From NCBI GenBank assembly GCA_036245525.1, contig BTPG01000006.1, positions 88,968,035 through 89,032,034 on the forward strand: DNA of 64,000 nt, written 5' to 3'. Under the pieces are notes generated by a model. That model was given only the letters and a program-made list of their open reading frames with translations, was not told the DNA's origin and ran no database searches. Each line of letters begins with the position of its first letter. Positions within the stretch are counted from its first letter, which is position 1. Origin of the DNA: Semisulcospira habei (Eukaryota > Mollusca > Gastropoda > Semisulcospiridae). Shown piece by piece: positions 1,501-58,505 of the stretch. Both the position numbers and the translations under genes were made by a program.

Positions 1501-1565
1501 GCAAGAGATATAAACCCTCATGAGCTCCCGCATTCGCGGGGGCTCATGAGGATTTATGTCTCTTG
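1501..1565. mobile_element. PAL-B palindrome core
   Basis: Near-perfect hairpin: arms GCAAGAGATATAAACCCTCA and its imperfect complement ending TGTCTCTTG, around a GC-rich centre (CCCGCATTCGCGGG). Same core as the copies at 7516, 8689 and 14736. Clear outer terminal repeats were not identified here. Confidence 0.8.
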
Positions 1566-3114
1566 TTAGTCCTGTGTTCTTTACGCATATTTTTGGTCCC
1601 ATTTAATTGCCACATTCCTTTTTCGCTGGCAAGATAAGTAGCGACTGATCTCTATACTGGTTTGTTTGTCCATTTTGAAAATATTAATAAATTGTGTTGT
1701 AACTGTTTTTTCTTTAAGTGTTTCTTTCTCCCTTGGATTCTTCTCTCCATTTAATGTGTGTTCTTCGCGACAAGTTCGGTCCGCGTGCACAGTTGTGGGC
1801 TCAGACGCGAAAAAAAAATATCGTGATCATTGACAGCGAAGGGCTCGATATACCGTTACACTCGTCACAGCATCATCAGTCTCACAATCGATGAGCACAT
1901 CATGCGACATGTATGTAACGCACGCAGACTTGCCCACAGTCGTACGCACAGACTCTCACGCAACAGACGCATACACCGCCACTGACTCAGACGGGCGCAT
2001 TCATGCGGTAAAACACAACACACGGGCTCCCTTTCTAAAGTAACCTTTATACACTATAATTGAAAAGAACGACTTAAATGATTATCAACTATATACACTG
2101 TTCTATTATCACACCACACACGTATCACAATATCTTTGCCAGGTTAGGTCTTAGTCTGACATTGCCTCCAACCTGTTTGATGTTGTTGCCTGGTTACGTT
2201 GGTCCTTCTCACGTCTAGGCGTGAAAGTCCTTCGTTGTACGCTTATTGCCGTCCTGTCTCTCTGGGCACGGACGTCCTTGTTCTCGTACGGTACTCAGTT
2301 CTCGCTTGGACTTGGGTGTCTTGGTTCCCAGTCAGACTCACTCTCAGAAGAGCTGGAGGGATGACCTCACGTAGGTCCCACCTGCGACTCGACGTCTCGG
2401 CGTCCGTCTTTCCACTCTTGTTACAAGAACTCTGAATAGACAACAAAAGTCCCAACGTAACACTTGCTAAACACACAACATATTGGATCAATGAGAAACG
2501 TCACGTAACCTGGCTGATACAAATAACTCACACGTTCATTCACACACGCACACGTGCTTCATAAACTATTTTCGTATCACCCCCATATCTCTGTCACTAT
2601 CTTGAAACAGACTATAGCCTAACTGGCACTCTTGCTATACCTTACTCTATACCCTGGAAAAGACTATGCTTACCCAACCACGTACTATCTTCATAGCGGC
2701 TTAGACATACACACTTCATATTCCTTTAGTCATCTAACTCGGTAAACAACTGTATACAAAAACACCGGTTACTTCACCGAATTCTAAACATACTATAACT
2801 AAACCAAACCGGAACACCGCTATACAACCACATTAATCTTACCACGCATACTGTCTTTAACTAAACAACTATCAATACTACGTTTATAGAAACATACCTG
2901 AAATCTAGGCTTCAGAGTCTTGGAATGCGGGCTAGGTAACTCAAACACAACCGTTCCATACGACAAGACAGCCCGCACTACCGATCTAGACCTCTGACAG
3001 ACACAGCTTCTGCCTAGAAATCACTAAACAGAACTCACTAAAAATCCCGTGCTAACCATGTCTTACAGATTTCCCGTGCGTCTAGTGCCACACGGACTAT
3101 CGGCACAAACAAAC
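1566..3114. other. No gene recognised
   Basis: Ordinary-complexity sequence, richer in A and C on this strand between about 2030 and 3110. No splice-bounded coding segment, known element or hairpin was recognised. Confidence 0.5.
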
Positions 3115-3180
3115 CGTTAACAAAAACCGTACCGTACTAATCCTACTCGTTAACAAAAACCGTACCGTACTAATCCTACT
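3115..3180 (+). repeat. Tandem duplication, 33 bp x 2
   Basis: Two identical adjacent 33-base units beginning CGTTAACAAAAACCG (3115-3147 and 3148-3180). This looks like a recent local duplication. Confidence 0.9.
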
Positions 3181-3336
3181 GTGTGAGCACTATGCACAAG
3201 CATAGAGCTTCATCACAATGTACATCGCAGTATCTATTTTCTTTTCATTTGCTGGCCTCATCAGATACATCACCTGTTGGAACCTGAGCAGAGCGTGGGC
3301 TCAACTAGCTTTGTGATCGTTGTTTTCGCGTGTGTG

Positions 3337-3365
3337 TGGGGGGGGGGGGGGGAGGGGGGAGGGGA
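3337..3365 (+). repeat. Poly-G / G-rich tract
   Basis: Long G runs broken by single A bases. Such tracts can adopt G-quadruplex structure and are prone to assembly error. Confidence 0.8.
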
Positions 3366-6614: not shown

Positions 6615-6688
6615 GCAAGAGGCATAGATTCTCATGGGTTCCTGCAGGCGTCAGCCTGCAGGGGCTCATGGGTATCTATGCCTCTTGC
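6615..6688. mobile_element. PAL-B palindrome core
   Basis: Hairpin with arms GCAAGAGGCATAGATTCTCA and GGTATCTATGCCTCTTGC around the secondary palindrome CTGCAGGCGTCAGCCTGCAG. Confidence 0.85.
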
Positions 6689-7099: not shown

Positions 7100-7482
7100 A
7101 CTGGGGAAAATCTGTCTTTCGCAACAACAATACCGTTCGAGACAGATTTCGGTAAAGAATTGAAGGATCACATGACCAAGTTACATCATACTTCCCACTA
7201 AACGATTGGCCAGAATGCTAGGCCGTGCTGTTTTTAACAACAAAAAACAAAAAAACAAAAAACACGTCATTTTATAGTTCACTTTGACTTCAGTGTCACC
7301 ATACATTGGTCAAGTTCCCCTATACATCATTTTGCGTTTTCTGGGCGTACAGTGGTCTGGGCTAGGGTCTGAAAGTTCGTGAGGAAATCTGCAGCAGATT
7401 CTCCGTGGTGTCTTTCCGCCTGTTATGCAATGAATACAAAATCGATATCCATGTTTCTTGTCTGACATTATTTATTAGTATA

Positions 7483-7686
7483 TAACCCCTTCACTGCCGT
7501 GAAAACTACCCAACTGCAAGAGATATAGATCGTCATGAGCCCCCGCAGTTGCGGGGGCTCATGAAGATCTATGCCTCTTGCTGACACCACTTTGTCTCCA
7601 TGTTCTTTGGACAGCTGGGGATCTCTGGCGGTGAATTAACAGAGATGTCAGAAACGCAGTCTGCGTCCACTGGCAGTGAAGGGATT
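7483..7686. mobile_element. PAL-B MITE, full element
   Basis: Outer ends TAACCCCTTCACTGCC and GGCAGTGAAGGGATTA are inverted copies. The palindromic core occupies 7516-7581, with arms GCAAGAGATATAGATCGTCA and its complement and centre CCCCCGCAGTTGCGGGGG. It is non-coding. The TTAA-like border and CCC start suggest piggyBac-type mobilisation; that is inference. Confidence 0.8.
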
Positions 7687-7916
7687 AAAGACTCGCCAAA
7701 ACAACGGGTTCTCAATGTTATCTTGCCTTGATGAAGCATTCCCTACCCATCTTTTCACAATTCATGTGAGTACAGGCAACGCAGACAGAGGAGTACAACT
7801 ACCCCCTGTGCGCAGCGTAGAGTCAGATAACTTAATATTTCCAAATAACCACTTCTCTTTTTTAAAAGAATGTTGTTTTTAATAAGTTGAAATAAATAGT
7901 ATAACAGATGTCGGAT

Positions 7917-8580: not shown

Positions 8581-8801
8581 TAACACCTTCCCTGCCACTG
8601 TACGTACATGTTTGTTTCTGAAACCATGGGTTCATTTAACGACCAAAAGCCAACACTGTCCAAGAATCCTGGATACAAACTGATCCCAGCAAGAGGCATA
8701 GATCCTCATGAGCCCCCGCAGTTGCGGGGGCTCATGAGGATCTATGTCTCTTGCAGTTGGGTCGTGGTTCACTTTTTTTCTCTCGGCAGTCAAGGGTTTA
8801 A
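8581..8801. mobile_element. PAL-B MITE, full element
   Basis: Outer ends TAACACCTTCCCTGCC and GGCAGTCAAGGGTTTA. The core at 8689-8754 is an almost perfect 66-base palindrome centred on CCCCCGCAGTTGCGGGGG. Flank blocks (CAAAAGCCAACACTGTCCAAG, CTTTTTTTCTCTCGGCAG) recur at 41191-41409. Confidence 0.88.
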
Positions 8802-9060
8802 ACAACAACTTTTCTGTCTGTGTCTATTTTTCTAGCGCAACAAAGAGTTTCTGGACAGCTTGCTGCGCTCATAAGGATGAAGCTTCAGCGCCAGGGATAC
8901 AGATGAACACACAGAGAGACGAGGCTGAGTGAGTGCAAGCGGACTCCCCCCTGTATACACCGGACAGCCGGCGTCTCTCCACAAAACCGGCCATGTACAG
9001 AACAGTCCTCCTGTCAAGTCACACTCCCAAGTTTCATATTTTCGCAACTGTAACAGCGTA

Positions 9061-10548: not shown

Positions 10549-10764
10549 TTAACCCATTTAGCCCCAAGGCAACATTTTGAAGGCGTCAACGATTATGTAC
10601 CGGTCGCATGAGATGGATGGACCTTCAGGCGCCAAGCTAATCTGGCACTACCCTTGAATTATCATGTCCACCCATCTCCTCAGGCGCCAAGCTAATCTGG
10701 CATTACCCTTGAATTATCATGTCCATCCATCTCCTGCTGTAGGGCGTTGGGGCTAAATGGGTTA
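10549..10764. mobile_element. PAL-A MITE with direct instead of inverted arms
   Basis: Complete ends TTAACCCATTTAGCCCC and GGGGCTAAATGGGTTAA. The core is abnormal: a 55-base unit starting CAGGCGCCAAGCTAATCTGG stands at 10626 and again, head to tail, at 10681. The left arm of the usual palindrome has been lost and the right arm duplicated. Confidence 0.9.
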
Positions 10765-10849
10765 ACGTTTCTTTAAGCGGGTTACCCTTTGAACAACTGA
10801 CAAGAGCTTTAGAGGGTCCATCTGCCTACAAATTCTTGGGATATATCTG

Positions 10850-11078
10850 TAACCCCTTTGCTGTCAGTGATCACGAATTTCGCGTCTGAAACGACTGCAC
10901 ACTGACCGACATTCGGATGAAAAACCGTTAAAAGTAAATGGAAAAAAAAATCGGCATAAAGAACATAGGATGATTAACAAGACACATAAACCCTCATGAG
11001 CCCCCGCGACTGCGGGTGCTCATGAGGATTTATGCCTCTTGCATCTGGGTAGCGTTCGCCTTGCCCAGGCAGTTTATG
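10850..11078. mobile_element. PAL-B MITE
   Basis: Left end TAACCCCTTTGCTGTCAGTG. Core at 10978-11042 (arms around ACATAAACCCTCATGAG) with centre CCCCCGCGACTGCGGG. The right end is diverged or lost after about 11078. Confidence 0.7.
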
Positions 11079-11970
11079 GCGGCCGTGATTATAATAGGCG
11101 GCCTGTGATTCTACATTCTACATTCTGCGCATTGAGTTATATTATAAATATGAGAAATGCGCCATATAAATACCATGTAATAATAATAATGATTCGACAC
11201 TGTGAGCGGACCAATGGCCGTGCGCGACAGAAGCATAAGTTCGTTACAAAGTCTGGCATATGTTCTGATGCGTGGAATATTCAAGAAACTTACATTTTCC
11301 AGGGAGATTTTTTCAGGAAGAGCCCCCCCCCCCCCCCCCCCCCACCTTTTTTTTTAAAAATGTTATCGGGAAACAAGCCGCTGCGAAAATACCTTTAACC
11401 TATAACTGCTGTTTACAATATGCCTGATTTTTTACTAATTTCCTGCGGCCGTGAGACAGCCTGAGTCGTCTGCTCGGCGTTGGAACTACAATCAATTTCT
11501 CTCATAACAATGTCGGATATAATAAAAGTCGAATATTACAACGCTTTTTCAAAAGTACAGACGACGCTTTTCTATATAAATTACTTCGCCCATAACAAAC
11601 TTCTCGTATAACAACGAAAACTTTTGGGTCCCGAGGCGATGTATAACGAATTTGCTGACCGTGGCTTTCAGTGTCAAGTCAACTCTCCAAACGCGTGTTA
11701 CTCCCAAAATCAAAAGAAAAGCGAGATTTTTTTATTGTTACACAATGAAAACTTCACTCTTCTCAAAATGGATATAATGGCAGAGTTGAAGGAAGCGTAG
11801 TAAGATGCAGTATGCAAAGGGCAATCACACAACGCTAATCAAACAAGCAGTGACATCCCTTGGCCTCATAATGTTTTGTCGTGTGCTGGCGATGTGGTGC
11901 TTTAAGGAAAGGGTCAAAGGAGACTAGCTGTTTGTACAGCGTTCGGTGTCTGCATCTTTCAGTGACAAAT
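11079..11970. other. No gene; poly-C tract and CGGATATAA-type repeat
   Basis: Poly-C at 11322-11343. Bases 11500-11660 repeat the CATAACAA/CGGATATAA motif cluster seen near 9150-9270. No exon found. Confidence 0.5.
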
Positions 11971-12076
11971 TATATTCTGACGAGCAAAAGAAATGCGACA
12001 TTTTTGGGAATCATCGGAAACACTTTAGTGTTTCCGATGATTAAAAAATGCCGCATTTCTTTTGCTCGTCAGTATA
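11971..12076. mobile_element. PAL-E palindromic MITE (TA-flanked)
   Basis: Arms TGACGAGCAAAAGAAATGCG and CGCATTTCTTTTGCTCGTCA with inner arms ATCATCGGAAACAC and GTGTTTCCGATGAT. The ends sit in TATA, as expected for a mariner-type TA target; the class is inferred. Confidence 0.85.
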
Positions 12077-12084
12077 TTTGTCGT

Positions 12085-12740: not shown

Positions 12741-12954
12741 TTAACCCATTCAGCCCTGAAGCACTACAACAGGAGATGGGTCGACCATGATAATTCAAGG
12801 GTAGTGCCAGATTAGCTTGGCGCCTGTCGGCGCCAAGCTAATCTGACACTGTCCTTGAATTATCATGATCGATCCATCTCCTGCAACTGGCGCAAAATCG
12901 TTAGATGACGCCTCCAAAATTTGGGAAATACGGCCGTCGGGCTGAATGAGTTAA
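12741..12954. mobile_element. PAL-A MITE, full element
   Basis: Ends TTAACCCATTCAGCCC and GGGCTGAATGAGTTAA. Core arms AAGGGTAGTGCCAGATTAGC and its near-complement around GGCGCCTGTCGGCGCC. The right subterminal block includes CGCCTCCAAAATTTGGGAAA, found in most PAL-A copies. Confidence 0.9.
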
Positions 12955-13183
12955 ATATTACTTGTATTCACTTGTACGCGGGTGGGTTTTTTATGTTGAG
13001 TCCAAAGTATAATCAGCACTCACAAACGAGCAGCTCAGGCTGACAGCCAAGAAAAGACAACTAAAAAAATAAATTGACAGCTGCTGTGAATTCTTTAGTA
13101 ATTTAATTTAAAGTAAAAAGCCAAACTTGTTGGTCTTATTTTTTTTTTCGCAAAGACTCAGGATACATAACTGATTTTCAACC

Positions 13184-13906: not shown

Positions 13907-14139
13907 GAGGTTTCGTTAGCAACGAACGACTACCGACAACGAACGAGTTCGAAAACGCGGTCGATAACCTGCTCGTATCTCCAAGAAGCATAGATCCTCA
14001 TGAGCCCGGAGGGCTCATGAGGATCTATGCCTCTTGGAAATGTTTGCATTGTTGTCAATCCTTACGGTAAAACTGATTGTCAGCCGTTATTTCGCTCTCC
14101 TTCGTTATTGGGAGTCGTTTGTTTCAAACGAAACCTCAC
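13907..14139. mobile_element. PAL-B2 MITE
   Basis: Outer inverted ends GAGGTTTCGTTAGCAACGAA and GTTTCAAACGAAACCTC. The central palindrome at 13978-14041 has arms AGCATAGATCCTCATGAGCC and its complement around CCCGGAGGG. The central arm is the same word as in PAL-B, although the termini are unrelated. Confidence 0.88.
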
Positions 14140-14692: not shown

Positions 14693-14842
14693 TTAACCAT
14701 TGTAGACCCGCGTCAGTTCCAGGCAGGTGAAGCCAGCAAGTGGCATAGATCCTCATGAGCCCCCGCGACTGCGGGGGCTCATGAGGATCTATGCCTCTTG
14801 CCTTTGGGTGTCGTTCGCCGTGCATCGGCAGTCAAGGGGTTA
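14693..14842. mobile_element. PAL-B MITE
   Basis: Core at 14736-14801, near-perfect arms around CCCCCGCGACTGCGGGGG. The right end GGCAGTCAAGGGGTTA is clear. The left end TTAACCATTG is diverged. Confidence 0.82.
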
Positions 14843-15990: not shown

Positions 15991-16059
15991 TCCTCTGTCC
16001 GCAGACGCATAGAGTTGTAACGTGTTAATTCAACGCAGAAAAGCGTACTATGAACATGG

Positions 16060-16201
16060 ATACAAAGTGGTTTCAGCAAGAGGCATAGATCCTCATGAGC
16101 CCACCCACCCCCCTCCCCCGCAGGTGCGGCGGGGCTGATGAGGATCTATACCTCTTGAGGTTGGGTGGAGTTCATTTTTTTCTCGGCAGTGAAAGGGTTA
16201 A
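16060..16201. mobile_element. PAL-B MITE, enlarged loop
   Basis: Core arms GCAAGAGGCATAGATCCTCA (16076) and GAGGATCTATACCTCTTG (16140) around a C-rich loop. The right end GGCAGTGAAAGGGTTAA is intact. Confidence 0.8.
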
Positions 16202-16243
16202 AACATGCAGTAGGCGATAATAGCGTTTACCAACCAAGTTAAC

Positions 16244-16323
16244 TATACTGACGAGCAAAAGAAATGCGACATTTTTTAAATGATGATTCCAAAAATGTCG
16301 CATTTATTTTGCTCGTCAGTATA
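16244..16323. mobile_element. PAL-E palindromic MITE (80 bp)
   Basis: TATACTGACGAGCAAAAGAA and TTTTGCTCGTCAGTATA with arms of about 35 bases around AAATGATGATTCC. It is the most compact copy, with both TATA borders. Confidence 0.88.
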
Positions 16324-17060: not shown

Positions 17061-17284
17061 AGAAACCACATCTACAATAATATACAAATCAGCCAGCTAC
17101 AACTAGCTGTTCTGTATTTCATATTATAAATACGTTCTGTTACTTCTAGTTTATATCCGCCGTGAGATGACCTTGCAACCTGTTCGGCGTTAAACCCTAA
17201 TAAATGTGTAAATCTGGTCCATTGAGAAACCCCAAACAAAGAAATAAACGCTTTTAGAAAGGATAAGTAAAAACATAATGCATT

Positions 17285-17390
17285 ATATTCTGCCGAGCAA
17301 AAGTAATGCGACAATTTTGGCATCATCGGAAATACTTTCGTGTTTCCGATGACTCCAAAATTCTCGCATTTCTTTTGCTCGTCAGTATAT
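17285..17390. mobile_element. PAL-E palindromic MITE
   Basis: TATATTCTGCCGAGCAAAAG and CTTTTGCTCGTCAGTATAT, inner arms CATCATCGGAAATAC and GTGTTTCCGATGA. Same structure as 11971-12076. Confidence 0.85.
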
Positions 17391-17812
17391 TTTCGAAACA
17401 CACACAGCAGAAATGGATTACAAGTATTTATATTTTTCAGGTTTCTTGTCTCACTGAGAAAAGCCGACAGGTTCGTGGAATTCTGTCTGCATGAAAATTA
17501 ATCTTGTCTTGTACTTTCTAAGCGTTTTTCTTTCTTTGTTGGAAATTTCTCTGCACTTTACACGCTGTGCAGTCACCCTTTTTAGGGCCGGATATGCAAG
17601 TCTACAGTTTCTGCTCTTTTGGTGGTGAGGATGGTCAGGGTTTTCTGCATGTCGCTCTCGTCCGCGGGTATGACGTCCTCAAGTGCCTTGGAATTAGTTT
17701 CCCTCACCTTGAGGAGGAGCAGGGAGCTGATGATTCGCCGTGATCCCATACGGAAGGGCTGGGTGGGTCGCGTACTAAAAAGAGTCATGAGGGGGAGAAA
17801 AAAAACAAACAT

Positions 17813-18001
17813 TTAACTCATTCAGCCCGACGCACGTATTTCCCAAATATTGGAGGCGTCATCTAACGACTGTGCACCTGTTGCAGGAGATGGATCGACC
17901 ATGATAATTCAAGGGTAGTGCCAGATTAGCTTGGCGCCGACAAGCGCCAAGCTAATCTGGCACTACCCTTGAATTGTAGTGCGTCAGGGTTGAATGGGTT
18001 A
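17813..18001. mobile_element. PAL-A MITE
   Basis: TTAACTCATTCAGCCCGACG and AGGGTTGAATGGGTTA ends. The orientation of the CAAATATTGGAGGCGTCATC block is reversed relative to most copies. Core arms around GGCGCCGACAAGCGCC. Confidence 0.88.
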
Positions 18002-18107
18002 TGCCATCGGCACTGGCAATGGATGCAGAATATGTTTTTGAAATCATCTTCAGTTCAACGCCATAGATCTCCACCCGTCCAAGGGACGTGGATACAAGAT
18101 GGTTTCA

Positions 18108-45000: not shown

Positions 45001-46701
45001 TGATCTCTTCCCGGCTTGGTCTGTCACAGCTGATGGGTAGGTCGGTCTCTGCCGGCTGGATGTCTGGGGGGTCGGGTGGGCTAGGTCTGTTCAGTAACTC
45101 TTCAAAATACTCGGCCCATCTGTCGAGTTGGTCTGCTCTGTCTGCAATAGGCTTGCCTTCTTTGTCTTTTACTGGTCTTTCTGTATGGCCATACTTGCCT
45201 GACAATCTTCTGGTAATGTCGTAGAGCTGTTTCATGTTGCCGCTGCCTGCTGCCTTTTCTGCCTCTGCTGCCAGGCTGTCTGTGTAGGCCCTCTTGTCTG
45301 CCCTGATACTCCTCTTCACCTCGCGGTTGGCTTCCCAGTATTCCCCCTGTGCCCTTACTTTGGCTGCTCTCGTGCGACTGTTGTTGACACTGCTTTCTTC
45401 TGCTTCCTCACTTCTATCTTCTTCAAGGTCTGTGCCGACAGCCAGTCCTTGTGATGGTGTTTCCTGAACCCTACAGTGTCTTTGCAGGTTGAGTTCAGAG
45501 CCTCTCTAACTGCCTTCCACTGCTGCTCTGTGGTGACTGCCTCCTCTTCATTTACTAGCTCCTGTAGCGCTTGAAACCGGTTGGACAGCACCAGTTTGAA
45601 CTCTTCTCTAACTCCAGTTTCTCTCAGGAGGCCTACATTATAGCGCTGTCTTCTTGTTGTCTCTGTGCGGCTTTTCTTTAGCTTGAGCTTCATTCTTAAG
45701 GTAAGCAGATGGTGGTCTGAGGCGACATCTGCTCCCCTCCTCACTCGAACATCTTGAAGGGATCTTCTAAATTAATGAATTACCAGCTGCTTAAAAAAAT
45801 AAATGCCGAGATATTTTTTAACAGCAGTTTAGAATGTGCTAAACTTCCTGTTTTATTTCGAGCGATCAATGTGCTCAAGAGCTTAAAGAAAGCGAGGGGT
45901 TGTAAAGGTCTCACTGAAAAAGCGCTTGATGTAATAAATTATCGGCCAATTTATTTTTAAATAGAGATCATCATATATCTCGTAACTCATACGCAGTCAC
46001 CATTTTGGAAAGTAGTAGGTTTGTAAGTATACAGCACGCGAGCGATGGTGCTTTTGTCCATTGTTTTCACTTGCAAGCACTTTGTCCAATACAACTCATG
46101 GCAGGTTCACTTGAATAAACGGCACAATTAACACTTCAACGGATGTGTATTAACAGTAACAATTATTATACCTCATCCATGGACGCATGTTGATATAGTC
46201 CACTAGCAATTGCTTGTTTAACTAGAGACCTAAACAGCACTCGTGATAAGGCTGCTGTTAAGTTTAGAGTTATGTGATTTTTACTTTTTTCAATATGTTG
46301 TCTCACAATTATTACTGGTTTCATTTAACATTTTGGTCCCGTCGGGACCAAAATCCGGTCACTGTTACCAGACTAACGTCCGGTGCAGCCAATACCCCTG
46401 GTAGAGAGAGAAAAAACAGACATCGATGATTTTAATACAATTTCATGGTATTTGTTTTAGGAGAAAGTTAAAATAATGCAACATACAACACGGCCGTTTG
46501 TGACAACAGACACGTGAAGGTCATTCCAATAGCGTAAAATCTCAGCAAACAAGTCCTTCTGCAAACACTAAAATGGACAAATGATGTTTGAATGCAAGAA
46601 AGAATCACAAGATAAAATGAAAATGACTTTAGATAAGATTTCAGAGGCAGAAAAGGTCTGCGTTTCGGTTTCATCACTCACTTCGCGATGCTGACCGCCA
46701 T
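39052..46701 (-). CDS. MIC13: MICOS complex subunit MIC13/QIL1-like, four exons
   Basis: Four minus-strand exons join in one frame to give 103 residues. Exon 1 is 46682-46701 (MAVSIA plus two bases, donor GTGAGT). Exon 2 is 41455-41602 (acceptor after TTCTGTTACATAG, donor GTAAAA). Exon 3 is 41022-41073 (acceptor TTGTCCAG, donor GTAAAT). Exon 4 is 39052-39143 (acceptor TTTTTTTTGCAG, stop TAA). Exon phases 2, 0 and 1 match at every joint. A short hydrophobic segment near residues 9-25 (LTKVAIGAGSVYATVEYGVW) and the C-terminal VLSAWNKGVTSVFGGLAE align by eye with the GGAVY and RDSWNAG regions of animal MIC13. That protein is a small inner-membrane subunit needed for crista junctions, as known for the family. 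Intron 1 (5,079 bp) holds RTE copy A and two PAL-A2 elements, and intron 2 holds a PAL-B element. Exon 1 is the least certain part, being only 20 coding bases. Confidence 0.82.
39856..39998. mobile_element. Foldback element in MIC13 intron 3
   Basis: Arms of about 60 bases: GTTATTGGTAGCAGGGGGTT and GCAAACCCTTGTGACCAATA at the outside, CCTTCAGGAGGTCAAAGGAA and TTTCTTTGACCTCCCTCAGG inside. Confidence 0.82.
40300..40920. repeat. Diverged duplicated block in MIC13 intron 3
   Basis: TTTTTCACACATTTGCCAACC (about 40358) with the following TGTGACC/TGACCTT words recurs at about 40658. It ends in CTATTGCACGCGAGTCAAAA. Probably an old dispersed repeat; class unknown. Confidence 0.45.
41191..41409. mobile_element. 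PAL-B MITE in MIC13 intron 2
   Basis: Left TAACCCCTTCCCTGC, right GGCAGTGAATATTTC. Core 41302-41367 with arms GCAAGAGGCATAGATCCTCA and GAAGATTTATGTCTCTTGC. It makes up over half of this 381-base intron. Confidence 0.85.
41937..42156. mobile_element. PAL-A2 MITE in MIC13 intron 1
   Basis: TTAACCCTTATCACACGG at the left, ATGATCTGGGTTA at the right. The core is TTCAAGGGTAGTGCCAGAAT with complement around GGTGCCCCTAGGCGCC. The termini differ from PAL-A. Confidence 0.88.
42296..42515. mobile_element. PAL-A2 MITE in MIC13 intron 1
   Basis: TTAACCCTTACCATTCGG and GTATATGGGTTAA. The core is shortened to CGGTGCCAAGC between the arms. It lies in the same orientation as, and about 140 bases from, the previous copy. 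Confidence 0.88.
42516..43520. other. Intron sequence with a repeat matched at 45850
   Basis: AT-rich to 43140. Bases 43157-43290 (GAGCGATCAATGTGCTTGAG, GCGAGGGGTTGCAAAGGTCT) are closely matched at 45857-46080 on the far side of RTE copy A. Confidence 0.5.
43521..45772 (-). mobile_element. RTE-like LINE copy A, 5'-truncated, with 10-bp target duplication
   Basis: The largest frame (minus, 43871-45319, 482 residues) holds reverse transcriptase: SKCSNYRGITLLSVP, NFVDYEKAFDSVD (motif A), RTGVRQGCLMSPFLF (motif B) and LDFADDLALLSH (motif C). The C-terminal piece ([30 protein letters not shown]) lies in another frame at 43525-43887, because about 40 bases are missing near 43918 compared with copy B. 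The 3' end carries a TTAC/GTAA repeat tail. TAATGAATTA at 43511-43520 recurs at 45773-45782, so this is a target duplication around a 5'-truncated insert. The endonuclease domain is absent. The RTE assignment rests on gene layout and is inferred. Confidence 0.88.
45783..46681. other. Intron sequence; repeat and small hairpin
   Basis: Contains the partner of the 43157-43290 repeat. At 46330-46354 the perfect hairpin ATTTTGGTCCC/GGGACCAAAAT stands; GTTTGGTCCTTGAAAGGACC at 51388 is similar. Confidence 0.5.
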
Positions 46702-46963
46702 CTTCGCCGAAAATCTGTGACAGTGACGAGAGTAACTTCCCTTGTACATATATATAACCTAGGTGGCTCAGTGAAAGCTTCACAACTCCAAACCAAATGA
46801 CTTTTGATTTTGCGTAGAATCATACGACAGCTAGCCCAGTATCGTCAGTCACTATGCAGACAGTGTATAGAGGCACATAGCATGAGCTGGATTCAATACA
46901 TTTTATGCAAACAGCATGTGAAATTCGAGTCATGACATTTATACTACTTATCTTTAACCCTTT

Positions 46964-47155
46964 TAGCCCCGGGACCCTGCAGCAGGAGCTGGATTGATCA
47001 TAATTCAAGGGTAGTGCCAGATGAGCTTGACGCCTGAAGGCGCCAAGCTCATCTGGCCCTACCCTTCAATTATCATGATCAATCCAGCTCCTACAACTGT
47101 TAGTCATTAGACACCACCCCCAAAATTTGAGAAATGGGATCTTGGGGCTAAAAGG
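46964..47155. mobile_element. PAL-A MITE, interrupted at its right end
   Basis: TTAACCCTTTTAGCCCCGGG at the left. Core arms GCCAGATGAGCTTGACGCC and GGCGCCAAGCTCATCTGGC. The right end GGGGCTAAAAGG is duplicated by the insertion at 47156-47539. Confidence 0.88.
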
Positions 47156-47539
47156 TTGATTGATTGTACATTGCTTAACGTCCCGACAGCAACAAGGCTT
47201 TCTCAGGACGTGCCTGCACCGCTCGTGAAAAAAAAAACCCAGAACATTGAATGTATGTCGCCAGCCGGTCCAATACGTTAAATAAACCTACGACACGGGG
47301 CCTAAATAAAGCCAAGACCACCTAGCAACATACATCCAACATCAAGAGCTACAGGCAGCGCAGACAGTAGGGAGAGTTTAAAAAAGGAAAATACAGGTGA
47401 ATGGACCAAGGGTAGACAGAAACACATGCCCCAGAATAGAAGGGAAAACCCATCCTGTGGCCGGGATGACCAGGGTGACCCTGGGAACTAAACAGTAGTC
47501 AACCCCACCCAAGTCCCCCAGGGCAGACCCGGGTGGGGT
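47156..47539 (-). mobile_element. SINE-like element with 14-bp target duplication
   Basis: TTGGGGCTAAAAGG at 47142-47155 recurs at 47540-47553. Read on the minus strand the insert ends GGGACGTTAAGCAATGTAC followed by an ATCA repeat, which resembles the GACGTTAA tail domain of the tRNA-derived SINE. A clear tRNA-like head was not recognised. A partial copy lies at 34236-34345. Confidence 0.75.
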
Positions 47540-47978: not shown

Positions 47979-50900
47979 TTACTTACTTACGCCTGTCACG
48001 ACCCTACCCGGGTATAGGCCGTCGACGAGAGACCTCCAGCGACTCCTGTCCTGTGCTTCTCCTTCGATTTTACTCCAGGTCATGGTTCCCATTCTCTTGA
48101 TGTCTGCTTGGAGGTCTCGACGTCAGGAGTTTCTCGGCCTACCTCTTTTCCTCTTTCCCTGGGGATTCCATGACAATGCCTGCCTATAGTGATACTGGAA
48201 GCTGGCTTTCTCAGACTGTGACCGATCCATCCCCATCTTCTTCGCCCAATTTCATTCTCTGCTGTTATCTGCTCTGTTCTCTCCCAGAGTCTGATGTTGC
48301 TGATCTTCTCTGGCCAGTGGATTTTCAAAATTCTTCTAAGGCAACTGTTTATGAAGATCTGTACTCTGTTGACAGTGGTTTTTGTCAATCTCCAAGTCTC
48401 TGCTCCATATAGGAAAACTGCTTTTACGTTGGAGTTGAAAATCCGGACTTTGGTGTTTTGTGACAGCTCTCTGGAACTCCACACTTTTTTCAACTGGAGA
48501 AAGGCTGATCTGGCTTTACCGATTCGTGCTCTGACATCTGCATCAGTGCCGCCTTCAGTTTTTGTCTATGATGCTCCCGAGATAGGTGAAGGACTCCACC
48601 TCCCCTGGTTGCGTTCAGCCTCATTGTCTTTGTTTTCTGTTTGTGGATGGTGAGGCCCACTTGGGACGAGATGTCAGCAAGCCTCGTGGTCTTGTCCTGC
48701 ATTTGTTGATGAGTGTGGGACAGTAATGCCAAGTCATCTGCAAAATCGAGGTCGTCAAGCTGTGTCCACAGTGTCCACTGTATTCCGCTCCTTCTCTGCT
48801 CTGTGGTCCACTTCATGACCCAGTCTATGGCCAGTAGGAAGAGGAACGGAGACAGCAGACACCCCTGCCTGACACCGGTTCTGACCTGGAGCTCCCTGGT
48901 GAACTGCCCTTCGTGGATCATGCGACATGTCATGCCATCGTACTAGCTGATCTTGATCAGGCGGACGAGCTTTGTGGGTACACCGTAGTGTCTTACGAGT
49001 TTCCACAGAGTCTCTCGGTCCACGCTGTCAAATGCTTTCTCGTAATCCACAAAGTTGACGTACAGCGGGGAGCTCCACTCCAGAGACTGTTCCACGATGA
49101 TGCGGAGAGTGGCGATCTGGTCTGTACATGATCGGTTTTTCCTGAATCCTGCTTGCTGGTCTCTCAGCTGGGGATCAACAGAGCTCTTCATTCTCTCCAG
49201 GATGATCCTGTTGAAGACCTTTCCTGGTACTGACAGCAAGGTGATTTCTCTATAGTTGGAACACTTGCTGAGGTCACCTTTCTTGGGAAGCTTGATTAGG
49301 TACCCCTCCTTCCAGTCAGCCGGCATCACCTCCTCTTCCCAGATCTTTCCAAGCAGTGGGTACAGCATCTCTACTGTTGTCTCTAGGTCTGCTTTCAGAG
49401 ACTCCGCTGGGATGCCATCTGGCCTTGCTGCTTTGCCGTTCTTCAAAAATGCCACTGCTCTTCTGATCTCTTCCCGGCTGGGTCTGTCACAGCTGATGGG
49501 TAGGTCGGTCTCTGCTGGCTGGATGTCTGGGGGGTCGGGTGGGCTGGGTCTGTTTAGTAACTCTTCAAAATACTCGGCCCATCTGTCGAGTTGGTCTGCT
49601 CTGTCTGCAATAGGCTTCCCTTCCTTGTCTTTTACTGGTCTTTCTGTATGGCCATACTTGCCCGACAATCTTCTGGTAATGTCGTAGAGCTGTTTCATGT
49701 TGCCGCTGCCTGCTGCCTTTTCTGCCAGGCTGTCTGTGTAGGCCCTCTTGTCTGCCCTGATACTCCACTTCACCTCGCGGTTGGCTTCCGAGTATTCCTC
49801 CTGTGCCCTTGCTTTGGCTGCTCTCGTGCGACTGTTGTTGACAACTGCTTTTGTTCTGCTTCCTCACTTCTATCTTCTTCAAGGTCTGTGCCGACAGCCA
49901 GTCCTTGTGATGGTGTTTCCTGAACCCTACAGTGTCAGTCTTTGCAGGTTGAGTTCAGCGCCTCTCTAACTGCCTTCCACTACTGCTCTGTGGTGACCGC
50001 CTCCTCTTCATTTATTAGCTCCTGTAGCGCTTGAAACCGGTTGGACAGCACCAGTTTGAACTCTTCTGCTCCAGTCTCTCTCAGGAGGCCTACATTATAG
50101 CGCTGTCTTCTTGTTGTCTCTGTGCGGCTTTTCTTTACCTTGAGCTTTATTCTTAAGGTGAGCAGATGGTGGTCTGAGGCGACATCTGCTCCCCTCCTCA
50201 CTCGAACATCTTGAAGGGATCTTCTAAATTTCTTGCTGATGCAGATATGGTCTATTTGGTTCTCTGTAGTAGTGGTCAGGTGAGACCCACGTTGCTTTGT
50301 GTATTCTTCTGTGTGGGAAGATGCTGCCTCCAATGACAAGTCTGTTTAGAGCACAAAAGTCTACAAACCTAGCTCTCCCCGTTCTCACTCATCTCCCCTA
50401 GTCCCTGTCTCCCCAGTCACCTCTTCGTATCCGGTGTTGTCCTCCCCTATTTTGGCATTAAAATCGCCCATGACGATGGTGATGTCTCGCTCCGCACATT
50501 TGTCCACGGCACTCTGGAGTCGGCCTTAGAACTCTTGTTTCAGTCTCTTCCTCGTCACTGTCATTAGCCAGCGTGGGCGCATAACACTGGAGTCATGACG
50601 TTCAGCTTGAGCTTTTTCTTGGTTCTAAAGGCTGCTGTGATAATTCTTGGCCCAAGAGGTTCCCAGCCCATCAGCGCTCTCTGTGCCACTGGTGACAGCA
50701 TGAATGCTACTCCTTCTGTATGGGGGGCATTCTCCTCTTCATGACCTGAATACAGAATCATCTCCCCACTTAACAGCCTTTTCTGGCCAGACTGCGTCCA
50801 TCTGGCTTCACTGATACCTAGCAGGGAAAGGTTGTACTTTTGCATTTCCGCTGCTATCTGGGCGGCCTTGCCGCTCTGGTACATGGTTGTGTCCCTGGAT

Positions 50901-51412: not shown

Positions 51413-51446
51413 ATCACACGCAGTTCATTGCTAAACTGGGTATAGT

Positions 51447-51666
51447 TTAACCTTTTCATCCTGATATACTAATGCTTGAAGTAAATTCGACTATTTTAGT
51501 TCAAGAGTGGTGCCAGAATAACTTGGCGCCCAAGGTGCCAAGCAATTCTGGCACCACTCTTGAACTAAAATAGTTGATCTATCTCATCTGTAATACATGT
51601 ACAGCCTTCAAAGGACAATAAGCAAATTAAAAAAATCAGCCTCAGGGACCAGGTGTAATGGGTTAA
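51447..51666. mobile_element. PAL-A2-like MITE, diverged
   Basis: TTAACCTTTTCATCCTG and GGTGTAATGGGTTAA. Core TTCAAGAGTGGTGCCAGAAT and complement around GGCGCCCAAGGTGCC. Confidence 0.82.
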
Positions 51667-53062
51667 CCTGCTTGTTCACTATAACAACTTTTTAGAGGAT
51701 GGGGGGCTGCATGCCCAGAAGGGGTTAATCAACCAGATTATCATCAACCATACAACATGCACACGCAGTATACAATTTGTAAAAGCAATTTTCTTTAAAA
51801 CTTTATTTTCAAAAAATGAATGTTGAAGGAAAAACACATGAAACCAAATAATTTGCACACAGAGAAATATCAGCAAGACAACAATAAAAATGTGTACATA
51901 AATATCGCATCATCAGTAATATGTGTGCCAGCTTGTTACACATACAGCATCCATTCAAAATATCCACACTCACAAATGGGGTGAAGGTGTGTGTGTGTGT
52001 GTGCGTGTGCGTGGGTGGGGAGGTGGGGGTGGGGGGAGGAGGGTTGTTTAAAATCAATAAATGACCGTTTTTAAGACCTTTCTATTTATAGACGGGACTT
52101 TTTAGGACGGGTCACGATGGGACAAATTTAATAGCATGTCCATGTCAAAGGTGGGCAGGCCTAAACCTCTCACAATTGAAGTAACAAGATAAAAATTACG
52201 TCATGTCTAGATACGCTAACCTCGTTGCTGAACGTACATTTGGCGCGAAGCGCCTGATGTGCGTATGTATGTGCGTATGTATGTAAACAAGAGAATCTCC
52301 GATATTTCTGTACACACAAGCTTAAACTTGGTGAAATACTTTCTTAAGCGGGTGACTCCGAGCATATTGTAATTGAATGTCTCATTTAAGACATAAACAA
52401 CCGTTTATAGTAAGTCGGTTGACCCAGATTAGAGTTCGTAATCTTTGTTATATTCACTTGAAATTTTGTATATAGCTAGTTTCGATAAAGACATTGGATG
52501 AGTGGCGGTGACGTAAAAGAGGCAACCCCGTCACTGTGCATACATTGACATAATACTCTAAATATGACATAATTCTCTATAGCGTGCACCGAAGTCTCTC
52601 TCTCTCTCACAGACATGCGCGCATTTCCAACAGGCATAGATCTTTATGCACCTGGAGAGCGCATGAGGATCTATGTCTTTTGGAGATGTTTGGAGCGCGC
52701 ACATGCACGCACTAACACACACACACATCGTCGTGCTTTTAGAAGAGCATGCAGGTGACCGATATAGCTAGTTTGAAGAAAGACTTTGGATGAGTTCATT
52801 AGCCAGCTTAGTACCCTTTCAACTTCAACAAAAAATAATTCTTTTCAGCAAAAATTAAAACAGTAAAAAACCTTGACATCTGGAGAAAGTCAGACAGTGC
52901 CGGTGACGTAAAAAAAAACCAATTCCGTCACCTTACCTAATCACATACCACAGATATGTTCCATTATTAGCCTTGGACAAAAAGGAATCACAAGACAATT
53001 CACTCATGGTAAGTTAAGAACTGGAGGCTGGCAATTTACACATGAAAAGGCAAGTACTGGAG
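51667..53062. other. No gene; simple repeats and a PAL-B2 remnant
   Basis: An AT-rich part with ACTTTATTTTC at about 51798 (possible minus-strand poly-A signal), (TG)n and G-rich at 51989-52045, and TATG repeats at 52262-52285. A PAL-B2 core remnant is at 52627-52695 (GGCATAGATCTTTATGCAC with GAGGATCTATGTCTTTTGG). Confidence 0.5.
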
Positions 53063-53287
53063 GCTAACCCTTATTATTCGGAATATACCAGTGTATGTAA
53101 TAAGTTTGACTAAAATAGTTCAAGGGTAGTGCCAGAATAGCTTGGCGCCTCTAGGCGCCAAGCTATTCTGGCACCACCCTTGAACTAAAGCCATTGGTCT
53201 ATATCCTTAGCTGTAAGTACTATAAAGTAGCTTGCATATGGCAGTGTACAAATTTGAAGCTTTTAGCCTCAGTATGACATGGGTTAA
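53063..53287. mobile_element. PAL-A2 MITE
   Basis: CTAACCCTTATTATTCGG and TGACATGGGTTAA. Core perfect around GGCGCCTCTAGGCGCC. Confidence 0.9.
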
Positions 53288-53504
53288 CACCACATGTAAA
53301 TAAACAAATACATGTAACCTTCTAATCCGTTCCTATAAATTGACACAGCCTTATGCTCACAACACAGAATAATTCGGATAAATTCTGATCATAACCTTTT
53401 TAAGGTGTAAAAAAAGAAAAACGCTTTGAGGAAAATGATAACTGAAGCTTTTTATAATACATATTTGATTTTTTTTTCAAGTGTCCCTTGTCTTTAATTT
53501 TAAA

Positions 53505-53550
53505 GACCATCATTTAGGTGGATACAGCCAGCTAAATGATGACCTCCAAC
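53505..53550. repeat. Small hairpin GACCATCATTTAG...CTAAATGATGACC
   Basis: Arms of about 14 bases around GTGGATACAGCCAG. Related hairpins lie at 56608-56647 and, in fragments, at 24474 and 55185. Confidence 0.7.
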
Positions 53551-53768
53551 CCATATCATACCGAGGCTAAAAGCTTCAAATTTGTACACTGCCATGTGCA
53601 AGCTACATCATAGTACTTACAGATAAGGATATAGACCAATGGCTTTAGTTCAAGGGTGGTGCCAGAATAGCTTGGCGCCTAGAGGCACCTAGCTATTCTG
53701 GCACTACCCTTGAACTATTTTAGTCAAACTTATTTCACACACTAGTGTATTCCGAATGATAAGGGTAA
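53546..53768. mobile_element. PAL-A2 MITE, reverse orientation
   Basis: Reverse of the 53063 copy (AACCCATATCATACCGAGGC at the left, TTCCGAATGATAAGGGTAA at the right). Core around GGCGCCTAGAGGCACC. Confidence 0.9.
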
Positions 53769-53826
53769 TGATAGGCGATCTCAAATAAGGGTGAATGCTC
53801 AGAACAAGGTTCTGCTAAATTATGAC

Positions 53827-55133: not shown

Positions 55134-55307
55134 AATACAGCAGGACCTGTTTTAAGTGACCACCCTCATGAGAAATCACCATCATTTGAGCATCATTTAG
55201 GTGACTGGCCACCTAGATAATAGTCTTTAAATACCTGTAGACCTTTTCACCTTTCAAAGCACGTGTCTTATTGTTCGAGACAGATTCTGCTGTGCTGTAA
55301 ATCATGT

Positions 55308-55519
55308 TTAACCCATTTAGCCCTTAGTCCCTACATGAGGAGATGGATTGACCATGATAATTCAAGGGTAGTGCCAGATTAGCTTGGCGCCTGAAGGCGC
55401 CAAGCTAATCTTTCACTACCCTTGAATTATCATGGTCAATCCATCCCCTGCAAATGGTACATAGTCGTTAGGCAACATTTCCAAAATTTGAGAAATGGGA
55501 CCTTGGGGCTAAAATGGTT
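55308..55519. mobile_element. PAL-A MITE, full element
   Basis: TTAACCCATTTAGCCC and GGGGCTAAAATGGTTCAA. Core around GGCGCCTGAAGGCGCC with arms of more than 50 bases, including the outer GGATTGACCATGATAATTC. Confidence 0.9.
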
Positions 55520-55950
55520 CAAGAAAAAAAACACCAAATCACATGTACTGGTAGTGGTACACAAAACTCATGTACAGTACATTCACAAAAGCAATTGTGC
55601 AACCCTAGTTTAAAAAAACCAACAACAAACAAAAAAAAAAACCACTACTATTATTGCGATGCATACAGATACAAAAAACAACAACAAAAAAACCAAACAA
55701 ACACAGCTAAATGTCATGTATGTTCTGTAATAAGTTTCTAATAAAACTGTGCTTTAGTTTCACAACTATCCTCAATTAATAAGTGTGTGCTGGTCTGCAG
55801 TTTTGGCCCTTATATTCCAAAGCCATAAGGTCCAAAACCACACACCACCAGGAAACTGGTCAAAATAGTTACATCTGACATTTTCTTTTCATTCAGCCCA
55901 ACATAAAAATCCTCTTGATGGAAATTATCCTTTCTAAACTGTATACCAAC

Positions 55951-58318
55951 CTCAAACCATGTGTCAATGCATTTGACATGGAATGTGTGGAAACATGGCA
56001 GAACTCTCTCAGTATCTCCCTTTTCATACTGACACATACAGATTTGGCACTCCTTCCCTGCTGCAACGTCGGCTGCAGAATACGTCCGAGTTGGAAGTTG
56101 GAAAACCAGATCACGAGGCATTGCCTAGATAAACAATGAACACTAAGCAATGAAAAATTGACTGTTCGCCTGAACAGATGAGTGGGCTAACACACTTTAC
56201 AGTAAAAACAACAGGTTTTACAAATATTTGCGTGCAGGTCTGTAACCGTCAACCATAATGGTTTAAGTAACACACTCCAAACTCACTGATCATTACACAT
56301 TATAGCATTTACCAGTAATGTAAGATGCTGTGGTCAAAAGAGAATGTGAAAGAATAAATAATAAAAAGTTATCATCAACTCTTAAACTCCCAGAACTAAA
56401 TGACTTCCATTCTATAGAATGGAAATTATTTAGTTCTGGGAGTTTAAGAGTTAATACCAGTAGTTCAACAGAAGTAACATTATACTTTATTCAGGAGAAA
56501 CAATTTGGCTGTAAAAAATCTGGTCCACAAACAACCAGTCTATACAAATGTAAAAAATCTATGGGTGAAAAAATGGCCATTGTGAAAATGCCAATGATCA
56601 CCCATCACACCATCATTTAGATGGCTATACCCATTTAAATGATGATCCTTAACCCTTTTAGCCCCAAGGTCCCATTTCTTAAATTTTGGAGATGTTGCCT
56701 AATGACCGAGTACCAGGAGATGGATTGACCATGATAATTCAAGGGTAGGGCCAGATTAGCTTGGCGCCTGAAGCTAATCTGGCACTACCCTTGAATTATC
56801 ATGGTCAAACCATCTCCTGCTGTAGGGATCCAGGGCTAAAAGGGTTAATGTCAGGCAACATGTTTTGCCCTTCCCTTACTATTAAAAGTAGACATTAAGT
56901 CTTTTAAGACCACTTGGTTTAAAAAAGAAATTCTACCAGAGTCTATGGCTACTAAAGTGCTAGTTGGACGAGGCAAATGATTTTTCTTGTCCTTTAGTAT
57001 CTTTTTCCTTTGTGCTTGGGCACAAAAATTTTATTTTTACCAGTAATGTAAGAAACGATGAAGTTTTTCAAAATCCAGAAATTGTGTGTTTTGATCTGCC
57101 AACTTTCACGGTGAAAATCCATTAATGGCTGGGCACTGCTCCAAGATGTACAGATTATGATTAGTGTCTCTAGATTCTATGTTTATTTCCCCTGCAGGTG
57201 CTAATGAGAATCAATGGCTTTTGCAGAGAGAATAAGCTGGTAGAGTGACTGCATTAACTCATTCAAGGTGCCCTGCATCAAGAGTTGCAGCAGTGTTGTA
57301 TAGTATTGCCGACTCATTTAATGTGCCCCGCATCAATAGCTGTGGAAGTGTCAGATAGCATTGCCATCAGCAACACTTCCACAGACAATGATGCAGGGTG
57401 CCTTGAATGAGTTATTACAAACAATTTTACCTTAGTTTTGACGTCACCAATAGCCTCCTGCAGACGAAGATTTTCTTCATAGTCGTCAACAGAGTCACAC
57501 GATACACTGGAGTCTAATGCATACAACCCGTCCACTGAGCCATCTATGCAGCAACAATTTAAAAAGTCAATGATACAAGCTATCTGTGTAAACAACCAAC
57601 CAAAGAAAGAACAGAAAGAAACTTAAAAAGGCCACTTCACTAACTGAATTAAATCCAAAATATTTGTTTCGTTATCATAAAACGTTTTACAGTACAGTTC
57701 ACACACATGCTAACCCTTTGCGTACCGGTAGCAGTTTTTGTCATGATGATTCCTTCATCCCGACAAAAACCACTACCAACACGCAAAGGGTTAACAATTT
57801 ACAATTTGCACAGCAACACCTCGCTCTCTTTTTCCTTATCTCTTCCCTTTTTTGTTTATCAAGCTAAACATACAAGTTTGCACATATCTAGCCAATCATA
57901 CCTAAAAACTGCTCCACACCAAACCTGTCGTAAAAATCTGGAAATCTTCTTTGGCCCTGAAAAAGGAAATAACAAAAGAAGGTCAACACAGTAATACCAA
58001 GAAGAGTGCACTAATTATCCCACCCCAGTTTGAGTAGGATATAAAATTATGATTTGGATTAGTCTGACTGAGAGACAGTCCTGTGCAAGCAGGCAAGTTC
58101 TGACTATGTACTTCCAACATGCCCCTCCTTAGAATAGCGGAAGTGGGGGATGGAGTTGTGTGAAGTAAGTCATATAATTAAAACATTACTTCAGTGCTGT
58201 AATACTCAATTTGCAAAATGAAAAACGCCGAAATTTTGCTCGGTACTAACCTGAGCCCTAAATCCTCTGGGTGGGGAGCGTCTCTGTCTACCCCATGGTC
58301 GTGCTGGCCTACTTGGTC
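55951..58318 (-). CDS. RING-H2 E3 ubiquitin ligase, four internal exons (partial gene)
   Basis: Minus-strand exons: 58251-58318, 57902-57956, 57431-57543 and 55951-56124. Each has a pyrimidine-rich AG acceptor (for example CCTTTTTTCAG, TTCCTTTTTCAG) and a GT donor (GTTAGT, GTATGA, GTAAAA, GTTGGT). The lengths and phases join in one open frame of 136 codons. In order the product shows an arginine/proline-rich stretch (PSRPARPWGRQRRSPPRG), an acidic stretch (CDSVDDYEENLRLQEAIGD), the linker DLVFQLPTRTYSAADVAAG, and the first six zinc ligands of a RING-H2 finger: CQIC, then PCFHTFHVKCIDTWF. The last CxxC pair should be in the next exon, which was not found in the window. RING-H2 proteins recruit E2 enzymes; which substrate this one acts on cannot be said. 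The first exon and stop are also missing. The introns hold PAL-A, PAL-C and PAL-D-like elements. Confidence 0.8.
56376..56454. mobile_element. Perfect palindrome in RING-gene intron
   Basis: Arms AACTCTTAAACTCCCAGAAC and the exact complement, with ATGACTTCCATTCTATAGAA at the centre. The right border is TTAA. About 37-base arms with one mismatch. Confidence 0.85.
56649..56848. mobile_element. PAL-A MITE in RING-gene intron
   Basis: TTAACCCTTTTAGCCCC and GGGCTAAAAGGGTTAA. The centre is shortened to GGCGCCTGAAGC. Confidence 0.9.
57254..57415. mobile_element. PAL-D-like MITE next to a splice donor
   Basis: TTAACTCATTCAAGGTGCCC and GGGTGCCTTGAATGAGTTA. The left end sequence is partly repeated at 57312 (CTCATTTAATGTGCCCCGC). 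It ends 14 bases from the GT donor at 57429-57430. Confidence 0.8.
57710..57794. mobile_element. PAL-C palindromic MITE in RING-gene intron
   Basis: CTAACCCTTTGCGTACCGG and AACACGCAAAGGGTTAA. Arms AGCAGTTTTTGTC and GACAAAAACC. Confidence 0.85.
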
Positions 58319-58379
58319 CTGAAAAAAGGCACATAACTGTATCATAAGTACCAATATTGACACAATAACAACACGTTTT

Positions 58380-58505
58380 AATCCACTATGCCTTTACGGA
58401 CTACAGCAAGACACAGATCGACCATAACAGTTCAAGAGTGGTGCCAGAATAGCTGCTGGGTGCCAAGTTATTCTAGCACCACACTTAAACTATCATGGTC
58501 AATGT
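58380..58505. mobile_element. PAL-A MITE, degraded
   Basis: AGACACAGATCGACCATAAC, core GTTCAAGAGTGGTGCCAGAA and TTCTAGCACCACACTTAAAC. The ends are not clear. Confidence 0.7.

Follow-up and report, generated by a model that had tools for sequence, protein, structure and literature searches.

Near-perfect hairpin cores common to repeat families with different ends in the genome of Semisulcospira habei

Miniature inverted-repeat transposable elements (MITEs) are commonly assumed to keep their ends. A stretch of 64,000 bp from Semisulcospira habei (assembly GCA_036245525.1, contig BTPG01000006.1, positions 88,968,035 to 89,032,034; in the following, the window) raises the question why short elements may instead have a constant middle, since two palindromic cores, PAL-A and PAL-B, sit here in elements of several end types (labelled T1, T2 and so on). 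The 64-kb window lies within contig 6 of the assembly, which totals 1.98 Gb across 507 contigs. A preliminary description had located both cores in the window, PAL-B inside T1 elements with TTAA-type ends and T2 elements with GAGGTTTCGTT ends, and PAL-A inside T3-type and T4-type elements, and all of these locations were confirmed. Our answer is that the constant middles are near-perfect DNA hairpins in several repeat families, which would be kept perfect and passed between carriers by template-switch copying; we give this reading a probability of about 0.5.

A search of the whole assembly for the PAL-B 20-mer resulted in 69,188 exact occurrences (34,669 + 34,519), and the reversed sequence used as control gave 0 in the same assembly. 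Exact inner PAL-B palindromes numbered 46,095 for the loop type CCCCCGC and 8,143 for CCCCTGC, both assembly-wide. Within the window, a hairpin scan revealed 41 palindromes, all families together; a chance origin was rejected, as the same scan on three first-order random sequences found 0, 0 and 0. Folded as RNA, eight of eight core hairpins gave energies of -33.6 to -92.6 kcal/mol with z values of -10.0 to -17.6. Self-comparison of the window placed 26 segments in a cluster with PAL-A and 18 with PAL-B. In a 250-kb random sample of the assembly, of which 20 of the 25 stretches come from one contig, arm profiles detected 23 palindromes and 8 solo arms of PAL-A, and 19 palindromes and 19 solo arms of PAL-B. 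Core words were also met in two viral contigs, where they were judged to be chance matches with no second arm nearby (251 bases each examined). Another sequence collection gave 0 matches to core words, a collection of genome contigs gave 0 to a 25-letter PAL-A pattern, and none of the papers searched contains any of six core 16-mers in its article text, figures lying outside such a text search.

The evidence on how these hairpins stay near-perfect comes from the joint change of their two arms. For PAL-B, we used 12 loci of the CCCCTGC loop type (six bare hairpins, five in the carrier T9, one in T1), chosen on the inner 13 bp only, with the outer arms free to vary. Of all cells, 95.2% were paired; both sides were changed in 22 cells versus 5.1 in shuffles and at 9 pairs versus 2.9 (0/500 each), and a one-sided change to a standard pair was seen in only 3 cells. 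When L083, which has a register shift, and the end pair were left out, the outer cells of 11 loci (six bare, four T9, one T1) were paired in 177 of 187 cases, the rest being two G-T, three A-C and five others. For the window and the 250-kb sample together, right arms were reassigned among copies, and positions that mark subfamilies were excluded; identical changes in both arms were present in 15 PAL-A cells versus a mean of 2.84 (0/5000 reassignments) and in 10 PAL-B cells versus 2.14 (1/5000). For PAL-A, the effect was already clear in the window alone (2 of 10,000 reassignments as high). Single cases can be seen in the PAL-A element at 46953-47170 (T3a ends; all elements are on the plus strand unless stated), with ATGAGC/GCTCAT in its two arms, and in the T2 element at 21655-21985, in which both arms of the core are changed (GCATGAACCC/GGGTTCATGC) and the left side carries a 17-bp tandem repeat.

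Another explanation would be that the core is constant through selection as a hairpin RNA of the microRNA or hpRNA (hairpin RNA) type, as had been suggested from the sequence before. Size and stability of the cores are precursor-like, and a second, decayed core lies at most about 160 bp from the bare one in three loci by profile (L058, L062, L015) and in a fourth, L070, by eye only. Covariance models of the microRNA type matched with 44.0 and 44.5 bits at best, all under their gathering scores, and mir-548 is said to derive from Made1 MITEs, which would be a precedent. In the Rfam scan of the window, no family reached its gathering score and two core stretches appeared only below it; most of the 32 and 18 rows given at a permissive threshold belong to microRNA models unrelated to each other, and all are sub-gathering, which we read as generic hairpin scores. 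Double changes dominate, however, the copies run into tens of thousands, and G-T mismatches are not in excess over A-C (24 versus 30 in the window arms, 2 versus 3 in the outer cells above). Since there is no G-T excess and pairs arising by transversion are present, copying of one arm from the other at the DNA level fits better than stepwise RNA compensation. Selection as hairpin RNA thus received no specific support, and we hold it to be very improbable.

Copying between arms may also turn round the loop. Among 22 T1-like copies (25 listed minus three bare rows), either orientation of the loop occurred with respect to the flanks: AACT in 8 and AGTT in 1, AGTC in 5 and GACT in 2. Template switching is reported to give equal arms and inverted spacers (PMC8604942; PMC8794818), so that arms changing together and a spacer turning round are common to those cases and to ours, while the accessible parts of these papers deal with yeast coding genes that contain short inverted repeats, and with RNA genes, and name no cores of transposon families. 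Under template-switch copying, replication or repair would meet the hairpin and switch templates, and one arm would be rewritten from the other. The same slip between loci, among tens of thousands of copies, would swap the sides around a core and could leave one core with several kinds of ends. The TTAA-ended carriers would be mobilized by piggyBac-type transposases, and T2 by a different one.

Whether different ends really surround the same core was assessed separately for PAL-A and PAL-B. End-to-end alignment of 22 PAL-A elements resulted in the subfamilies T3a, T3b, T5 and T4 plus an intermediate, T7, at 51446-51667. By core match and alignment, T3a ends were assigned to the elements at 24617-24816 and 56647-56849 (minus strand), T3b ends to those at 12741-12956 and 17811-18010 (minus strand), and T4 ends to those at 41937-42156, 42296-42513, 53064-53290 and, inverted, 53546-53770 (minus strand). 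T5 ends (TTAACTCATTCTACCCC) were assigned by alignment at 19020-19237, a further T3a element with a 112-bp hairpin lies at 55307-55523, and a T3 element at 10549-10766 (minus strand) harbors two tandem arms of the same direction in its core. Several copies run from TTAACCC or TTAACTC to GGGTTAA or GAGTTAA (e.g., 10549, 12741, 56649), and the features of piggyBac-type TTAA MITEs, a TTAA target duplication and CCC/GGG ends, were found in PAL-A elements as well as in T1; intact copies of these TTAA elements measure about 200-230 bp. Two of the T4 elements stand in inverted order 262 bp apart (53067-53766) and are 94% complementary over 219 bp.

Homology of the PAL-A ends was judged with profiles made from the flanks alone and scored against shuffled flanks. 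The T7 element was matched by a right-flank model of T3 and T5 combined (14.4 bits, 0/500 shuffles) and by both T4 flank models (16.3 bits right and 20.2 bits left, 0/500 each). After enlargement of the T7 model with copies from the random sample (two left and three right flanks), its right-flank model matched all four T4 flanks (23.7-34.8 bits) and three of four T5 flanks, and its left-flank model all four T4 flanks (18.2-25.1 bits), each at 0/1000 shuffles. At this level, none of six T3 right flanks was matched by the T7 right-flank model, and the T5 right-flank model matched both T3 flanks tested (24.6 and 37.1 bits). On the left side, none of ten T5 or T3 flanks reached 0/1000 with the T7 model, the best values being 2 and 3 of 1000; the left model of T3 and T5 was only suggestive against T4 (1, 24, 10 and 22 of 500 shuffles), with 2/500 against the T7 element. 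Judged from these profiles, the right flanks of T3, T5, T7 and T4 form one chain of homologues, and T4 and T3 look unrelated by eye because their direct comparison is weak or absent. The assumption that PAL-A is carried by elements with unrelated ends was therefore not borne out on the right side, where descent from one ancestral end is indicated and capture of the core as a module was set aside owing to the T7 bridge. On the left, flank matches link T4 with T7 only, so that the matter is less settled there, the left ends having either diverged faster or been swapped at the core.

A reading in terms of exchange at the core does not depend on these left flanks. Trees built from the left and right halves of PAL-A agree in keeping T4, T3a and T3b together, and T5 holds together only on the left. 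The element at 38239-38452 is placed differently by the two trees: the left half joins T3a, and the right half groups with the element at 34035, which is of T5 type. Constraining the left half to T5 came at a cost of 14.05 log units (p 0.03), and constraining the right half to T3a at one of 46.2 (p 6e-5). Arm positions that distinguish the types are mismatched in its hairpin and the switch therefore lies near the tip, so that this element looks like a PAL-A recombinant that switched inside the hairpin. A second candidate is L047, in which a T3 left end with part of a PAL-A arm is fused to a PAL-B core that has a T1-like right side.

PAL-B was found in more kinds of carriers. Leaving out solo pieces at 3672 and 42150, 16 window copies were used, nine in T1, five in T2, one in T6 and one bare, the assignments to carriers here and below having been made by eye. 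The T1 copies include those at 7482-7688 (minus strand, core 7516-7581), 8581-8804 (core 8689-8754), 14733-14842 (core 14736-14801, no clear left end), 16023-16205 (insertion at the core tip, exact T1 end on the right) and 41191-41409, and variant T1 copies at 10848-11080 (core 10978-11041) and 1480 (core 1502-1565, ATAAACC arms). Their TTAA-type ends are more decayed than those of PAL-A and rarely both intact. With the T1 left-flank model, the copy at 10848 scored above shuffles (0/300), that at 14640 weakly so (6/300), and those at 1480 and 6500 did not; the long flank at 1480 is missed by the model, and the reading of this copy as a variant of T1 is based on its alignment with 10848, the 6500 copy being read as a bare hairpin. 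T2 copies lie, besides 21655, at 13907-14137 (core 13980-14038), 25010-25287 (central deletion in the core), 31854-32148 and 34349-34562 (left arm of the core mostly deleted). No 8-bp target duplication as in hAT elements was found at the five T2 copies, the longest word common to both flanks being 4 or shorter, and the T2 end TAGTG/CAGTG only resembles what we take to be a hAT end.

In regard to T1 and T2 flanks, none of 16 profile comparisons exceeded shuffles, with the 34349 copy dropped (core not splittable) and part of the right flank of the 31854 copy falling into the core, while positive controls (one left-out T1 copy, four left-right comparisons of T2) reached 22-62 bits. At the sensitivity used, the only detectable common part of T1 and T2 appears to be the PAL-B core, in line with what had been proposed. 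The same core was found in T6, a microsatellite-rich repeat at least about 1.2 kb long that has it between (TC)n and (CA)n, in the window at 52570-52730 with a T2-like stem base. Direct repeats of about 35 bp flank this stretch (52468-52510 and 52765-52800) and seem to be part of T6. A fourth carrier, T9, was found outside the window. The 19 palindromes of the 250-kb sample comprised 13 in T1, 2 in T2, 3 in T6 and 1 bare, and the first 27 loci listed with the exact PAL-B word, three clustered places at 2.514 Mb being left out, 21 in T1, 1 in T2, 4 bare or uncertain and 1 fusion. From the first 14 CCCCTGC palindromes listed, two (L007 and L058, both bare) were already known; the other 12 comprised 1 in T1, 5 with a common further flank (T9) and 6 without one, and 16 further loci with the CCCCTGC 31-mer were 12 in T1 and 4 bare. 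A PAL-B core common to different carriers is thus supported and extended to T1, T2, T6, T9 and bare copies. A tandem array of 52-bp units in L023 (5564-5849) consists of one PAL-B arm and adjoining T1-like sequence.

Such a distribution might also result if PAL-B had been copied only once into each carrier by nested insertion and inherited from then on. Core and carrier mostly agree, with own subtypes of loop and stem base (CCCCCGC in T1, CCCGG with CATCTCC in T2, CCCCTGC with GATTCTC in T9), and comparable nesting is described in the accessible parts of the papers on CMITE-IN (PMC2872659) and MER6 (PMC6887750). Inheritance after a single capture leaves the paired change of the arms, the recombinant at 38239 and the inverted loops unexplained, and we regard it as a serious possibility that nevertheless falls clearly short of even odds.

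The middle was also compared with the flanks directly. Changes found in a single copy were rarer in cores (33/960) than in flanks (161/2172), with a pooled p of 1.2e-5 under filters for gaps and local identity; a looser count (pooled p 2.5e-17) was superseded by this stricter one. By group, p was 0.003 for T1, 0.012 for T2, 0.13 for T4, 0.29 for T3a and 0.40 for T5, so that a middle more constant than its surroundings, as claimed before, holds for the pooled data, T1 and T2 and is not significant in T4, T3a and T5. For PAL-A, mean pairwise identity was 0.88 and 0.84 in the arms and 0.73 and 0.75 in the flanks with a lenient aligner.

A similar pattern is known from CMITEs of Acropora corals, short TTAA elements whose internal region is more conserved between families than their ends (PMC2872659), and no nearer case of conserved cores or palindromic MITEs was found in the literature searched. 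Like the elements described here, CMITEs form families with different ends around a conserved middle and occur in tandem arrays, and the left end of CMITE family VI, CCCTTTCACTGCCA, matches the T1 end, exactly so in one window copy (16185, minus strand) (PMC2872659). They differ in their size of 96-108 bp, compared with the 200-230 bp noted above, and the accessible text describes no palindrome and does not report the conserved region outside TTAA elements; the comparison with the PAL cores is one of descriptions, not of internal sequences (PMC2872659). By analogy to what was suggested for the corals, our elements could be ordinary TTAA MITEs with a constrained middle needed for transposition, while their ends could adjust to various transposases of the piggyBac type. 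The CMITE-like end and middle agree with this, as do the PAL-A right flanks, a single diverging chain in which the core is the conserved part. A required middle does not account for a PAL-B core that is also present in T2, T6 and T9 and in bare hairpins, nor for paired arm changes that include transversions, and this explanation appears doubtful to us.

Several points weigh against template-switch copying as well. Arm copying alone preserves the pairing without slowing sequence change; for the PAL-B arm to stay constant from one carrier to the next, copying between loci or constraint is therefore needed. Of such copying, a single recombinant and a single fusion came to light: the groups used for 38239 were named after the pattern had been seen, its left half reaching only p 0.03, and L047 could be explained by deletion between neighboring elements. 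As core subtypes largely go with their carriers, exchange must be infrequent. The cells represent copies and not events, and of the 15 PAL-A cells three are one inserted base in L034 and five are one change common to T5 copies. In the window alone, the joint change in PAL-B is marginal (the observed value was reached in 520 of 10,000 reassignments), and the loop inversion is based on few copies. Core conservation within a single subfamily is significant only for T1 and T2, and the elements were found via their cores, a bias toward intact cores. Finally, all data come from the assembly of a single genome.

Bare PAL-B hairpins form a set of their own. In the window, one of the CTGC loop type with TCT on its left is located at 6615-6688, and no T1, T2, T6 or T9 flanks were seen around it. 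Altogether, 14 loci were included and two uncertain ones, L042 and L055, excluded. In a computed comparison of flanks with cores masked, none of the 91 pairs matched, and none matched T9 or T1 (E 1e-3; short flanks and thus limited sensitivity), while within carriers 9 of 15 T9 pairs and 29 of 78 T1 pairs did. Among the first 25 matches listed per query, the flanks of L006, L015 and the window copy at 6612 had none within about 300 bp of the core, the distance being about 115 bp on the left of 6612, where a simple repeat starts. The bare cores measure 54-75 bp, with 66 bp in 9 of 14. No target duplication was found at the 14 loci, the mean abutting repeat being 1.86 compared with 2.21 in mismatched loci, and TCT stands directly at one foot in 8 of 14, about 0.5 being expected.

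These hairpins may be either a self-dispersing unit or old T1, T9 or T2 copies with decayed flanks, and neither is strongly favored. If nothing moves without ends, TCT could be residual carrier sequence, as it stands beside the hairpin in T9 and T2 copies too, and most bare loci were found by exact core words, which favors intact cores. The missing flank matches, within their limited sensitivity, and the outer arms, still paired in the 177 of 187 cells although they were not selected for, speak against decay, which we consider rather unlikely. Spreading of the core alone is conceivable for the bare copies. Bacterial repetitive extragenic palindromes (REPs), associated with RAYT transposases of the IS200/IS605 type, are palindromes that are likewise bare and dispersed and may occur in pairs; one side of them carries a fixed short foot (PMC2817692), to which the TCT of 8 of our 14 loci may compare. 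Many listed REPs carry a GTAG foot, and IS200/IS605 insertion proceeds without a larger target duplication (PMC2817692), such as was also not found at the 14 bare loci. REPs are bacterial and have shorter stems (PMC2817692), and the likeness drawn here is one of hairpins alone. We consider it improbable that PAL-B itself disperses in an animal genome, as a bare hairpin some 66 bp long that has a TCT foot, inserts like a REP without duplicating its target, regains its symmetry each time it is copied, and was taken up as the center of TTAA MITEs, T2 foldbacks, T6 and T9.

Within the literature searched, a palindromic core common to elements with unmatched ends and to bare copies, with arms changing in pairs, seems to be new. 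MER6, with a V domain of a short interspersed element (SINE) inside a mariner MITE, also has a conserved central module in otherwise unrelated mobile elements, but there the module is a SINE domain attributed to SINE insertion, and a palindrome is not mentioned in the accessible text (PMC6887750). A hairpin core that persists in carriers whose ends do not match, with copies in the tens of thousands, and that changes on both arms at once offers a natural experiment in which the rate of arm-to-arm copying, exchange between loci and dispersal without ends could be measured by counting copies in this genome and in sister species. The coral puzzle of 2010, a conserved middle with variable ends, is thereby extended to another animal, likely a mollusc, and a possible mechanism is put forward.

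The window contains further palindromic and foldback elements. Another palindromic TTAA-type family with a core around GATGATTCCTGCAGGAATCATC was seen at 9638, 13191, 16653, 35587, 54619 and 57711, with ends differing somewhat by eye, and its copy at 54619 adjoins a piece of a PAL-A core. Near-palindromes of about 80 bp running from TTAA to TTAA (TTAACTCATTCGAGACGTGCC-type ends) are present at 22282-22362, 23409-23495 and 35759-35840, and a foldback family starting near TATACTGACGAGCAAAAGAAATGCGACA at 11969-12079, 16241-16323 and 17282-17392. A tRNA scan of the window found none, and Pfam gave no match for three frames of 61611-63724, the frame resembling RNase H not being among them; we take the overlapping open frames there to resemble a DIRS-like element in the part that encodes RNase H and a recombinase. 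Simple repeats occur in the window, and a possible exon at 55813-56124 (minus strand) presumably resembles a RING finger. Three reverse transcriptase stretches (Pfam RVT_1) were identified at 43871-45319, 48080-49773 and 59401-59970, the first two with DUF6451 and the second split over several frames. The window is eukaryotic, and a snail host appears likely from the first stretch: among the best 120 of 2434 hits, its closest named relative was from the marine snail Batillaria attramentaria (75% identity), followed by Schistosoma flukes (69%) and the snail Babylonia areolata (67%).

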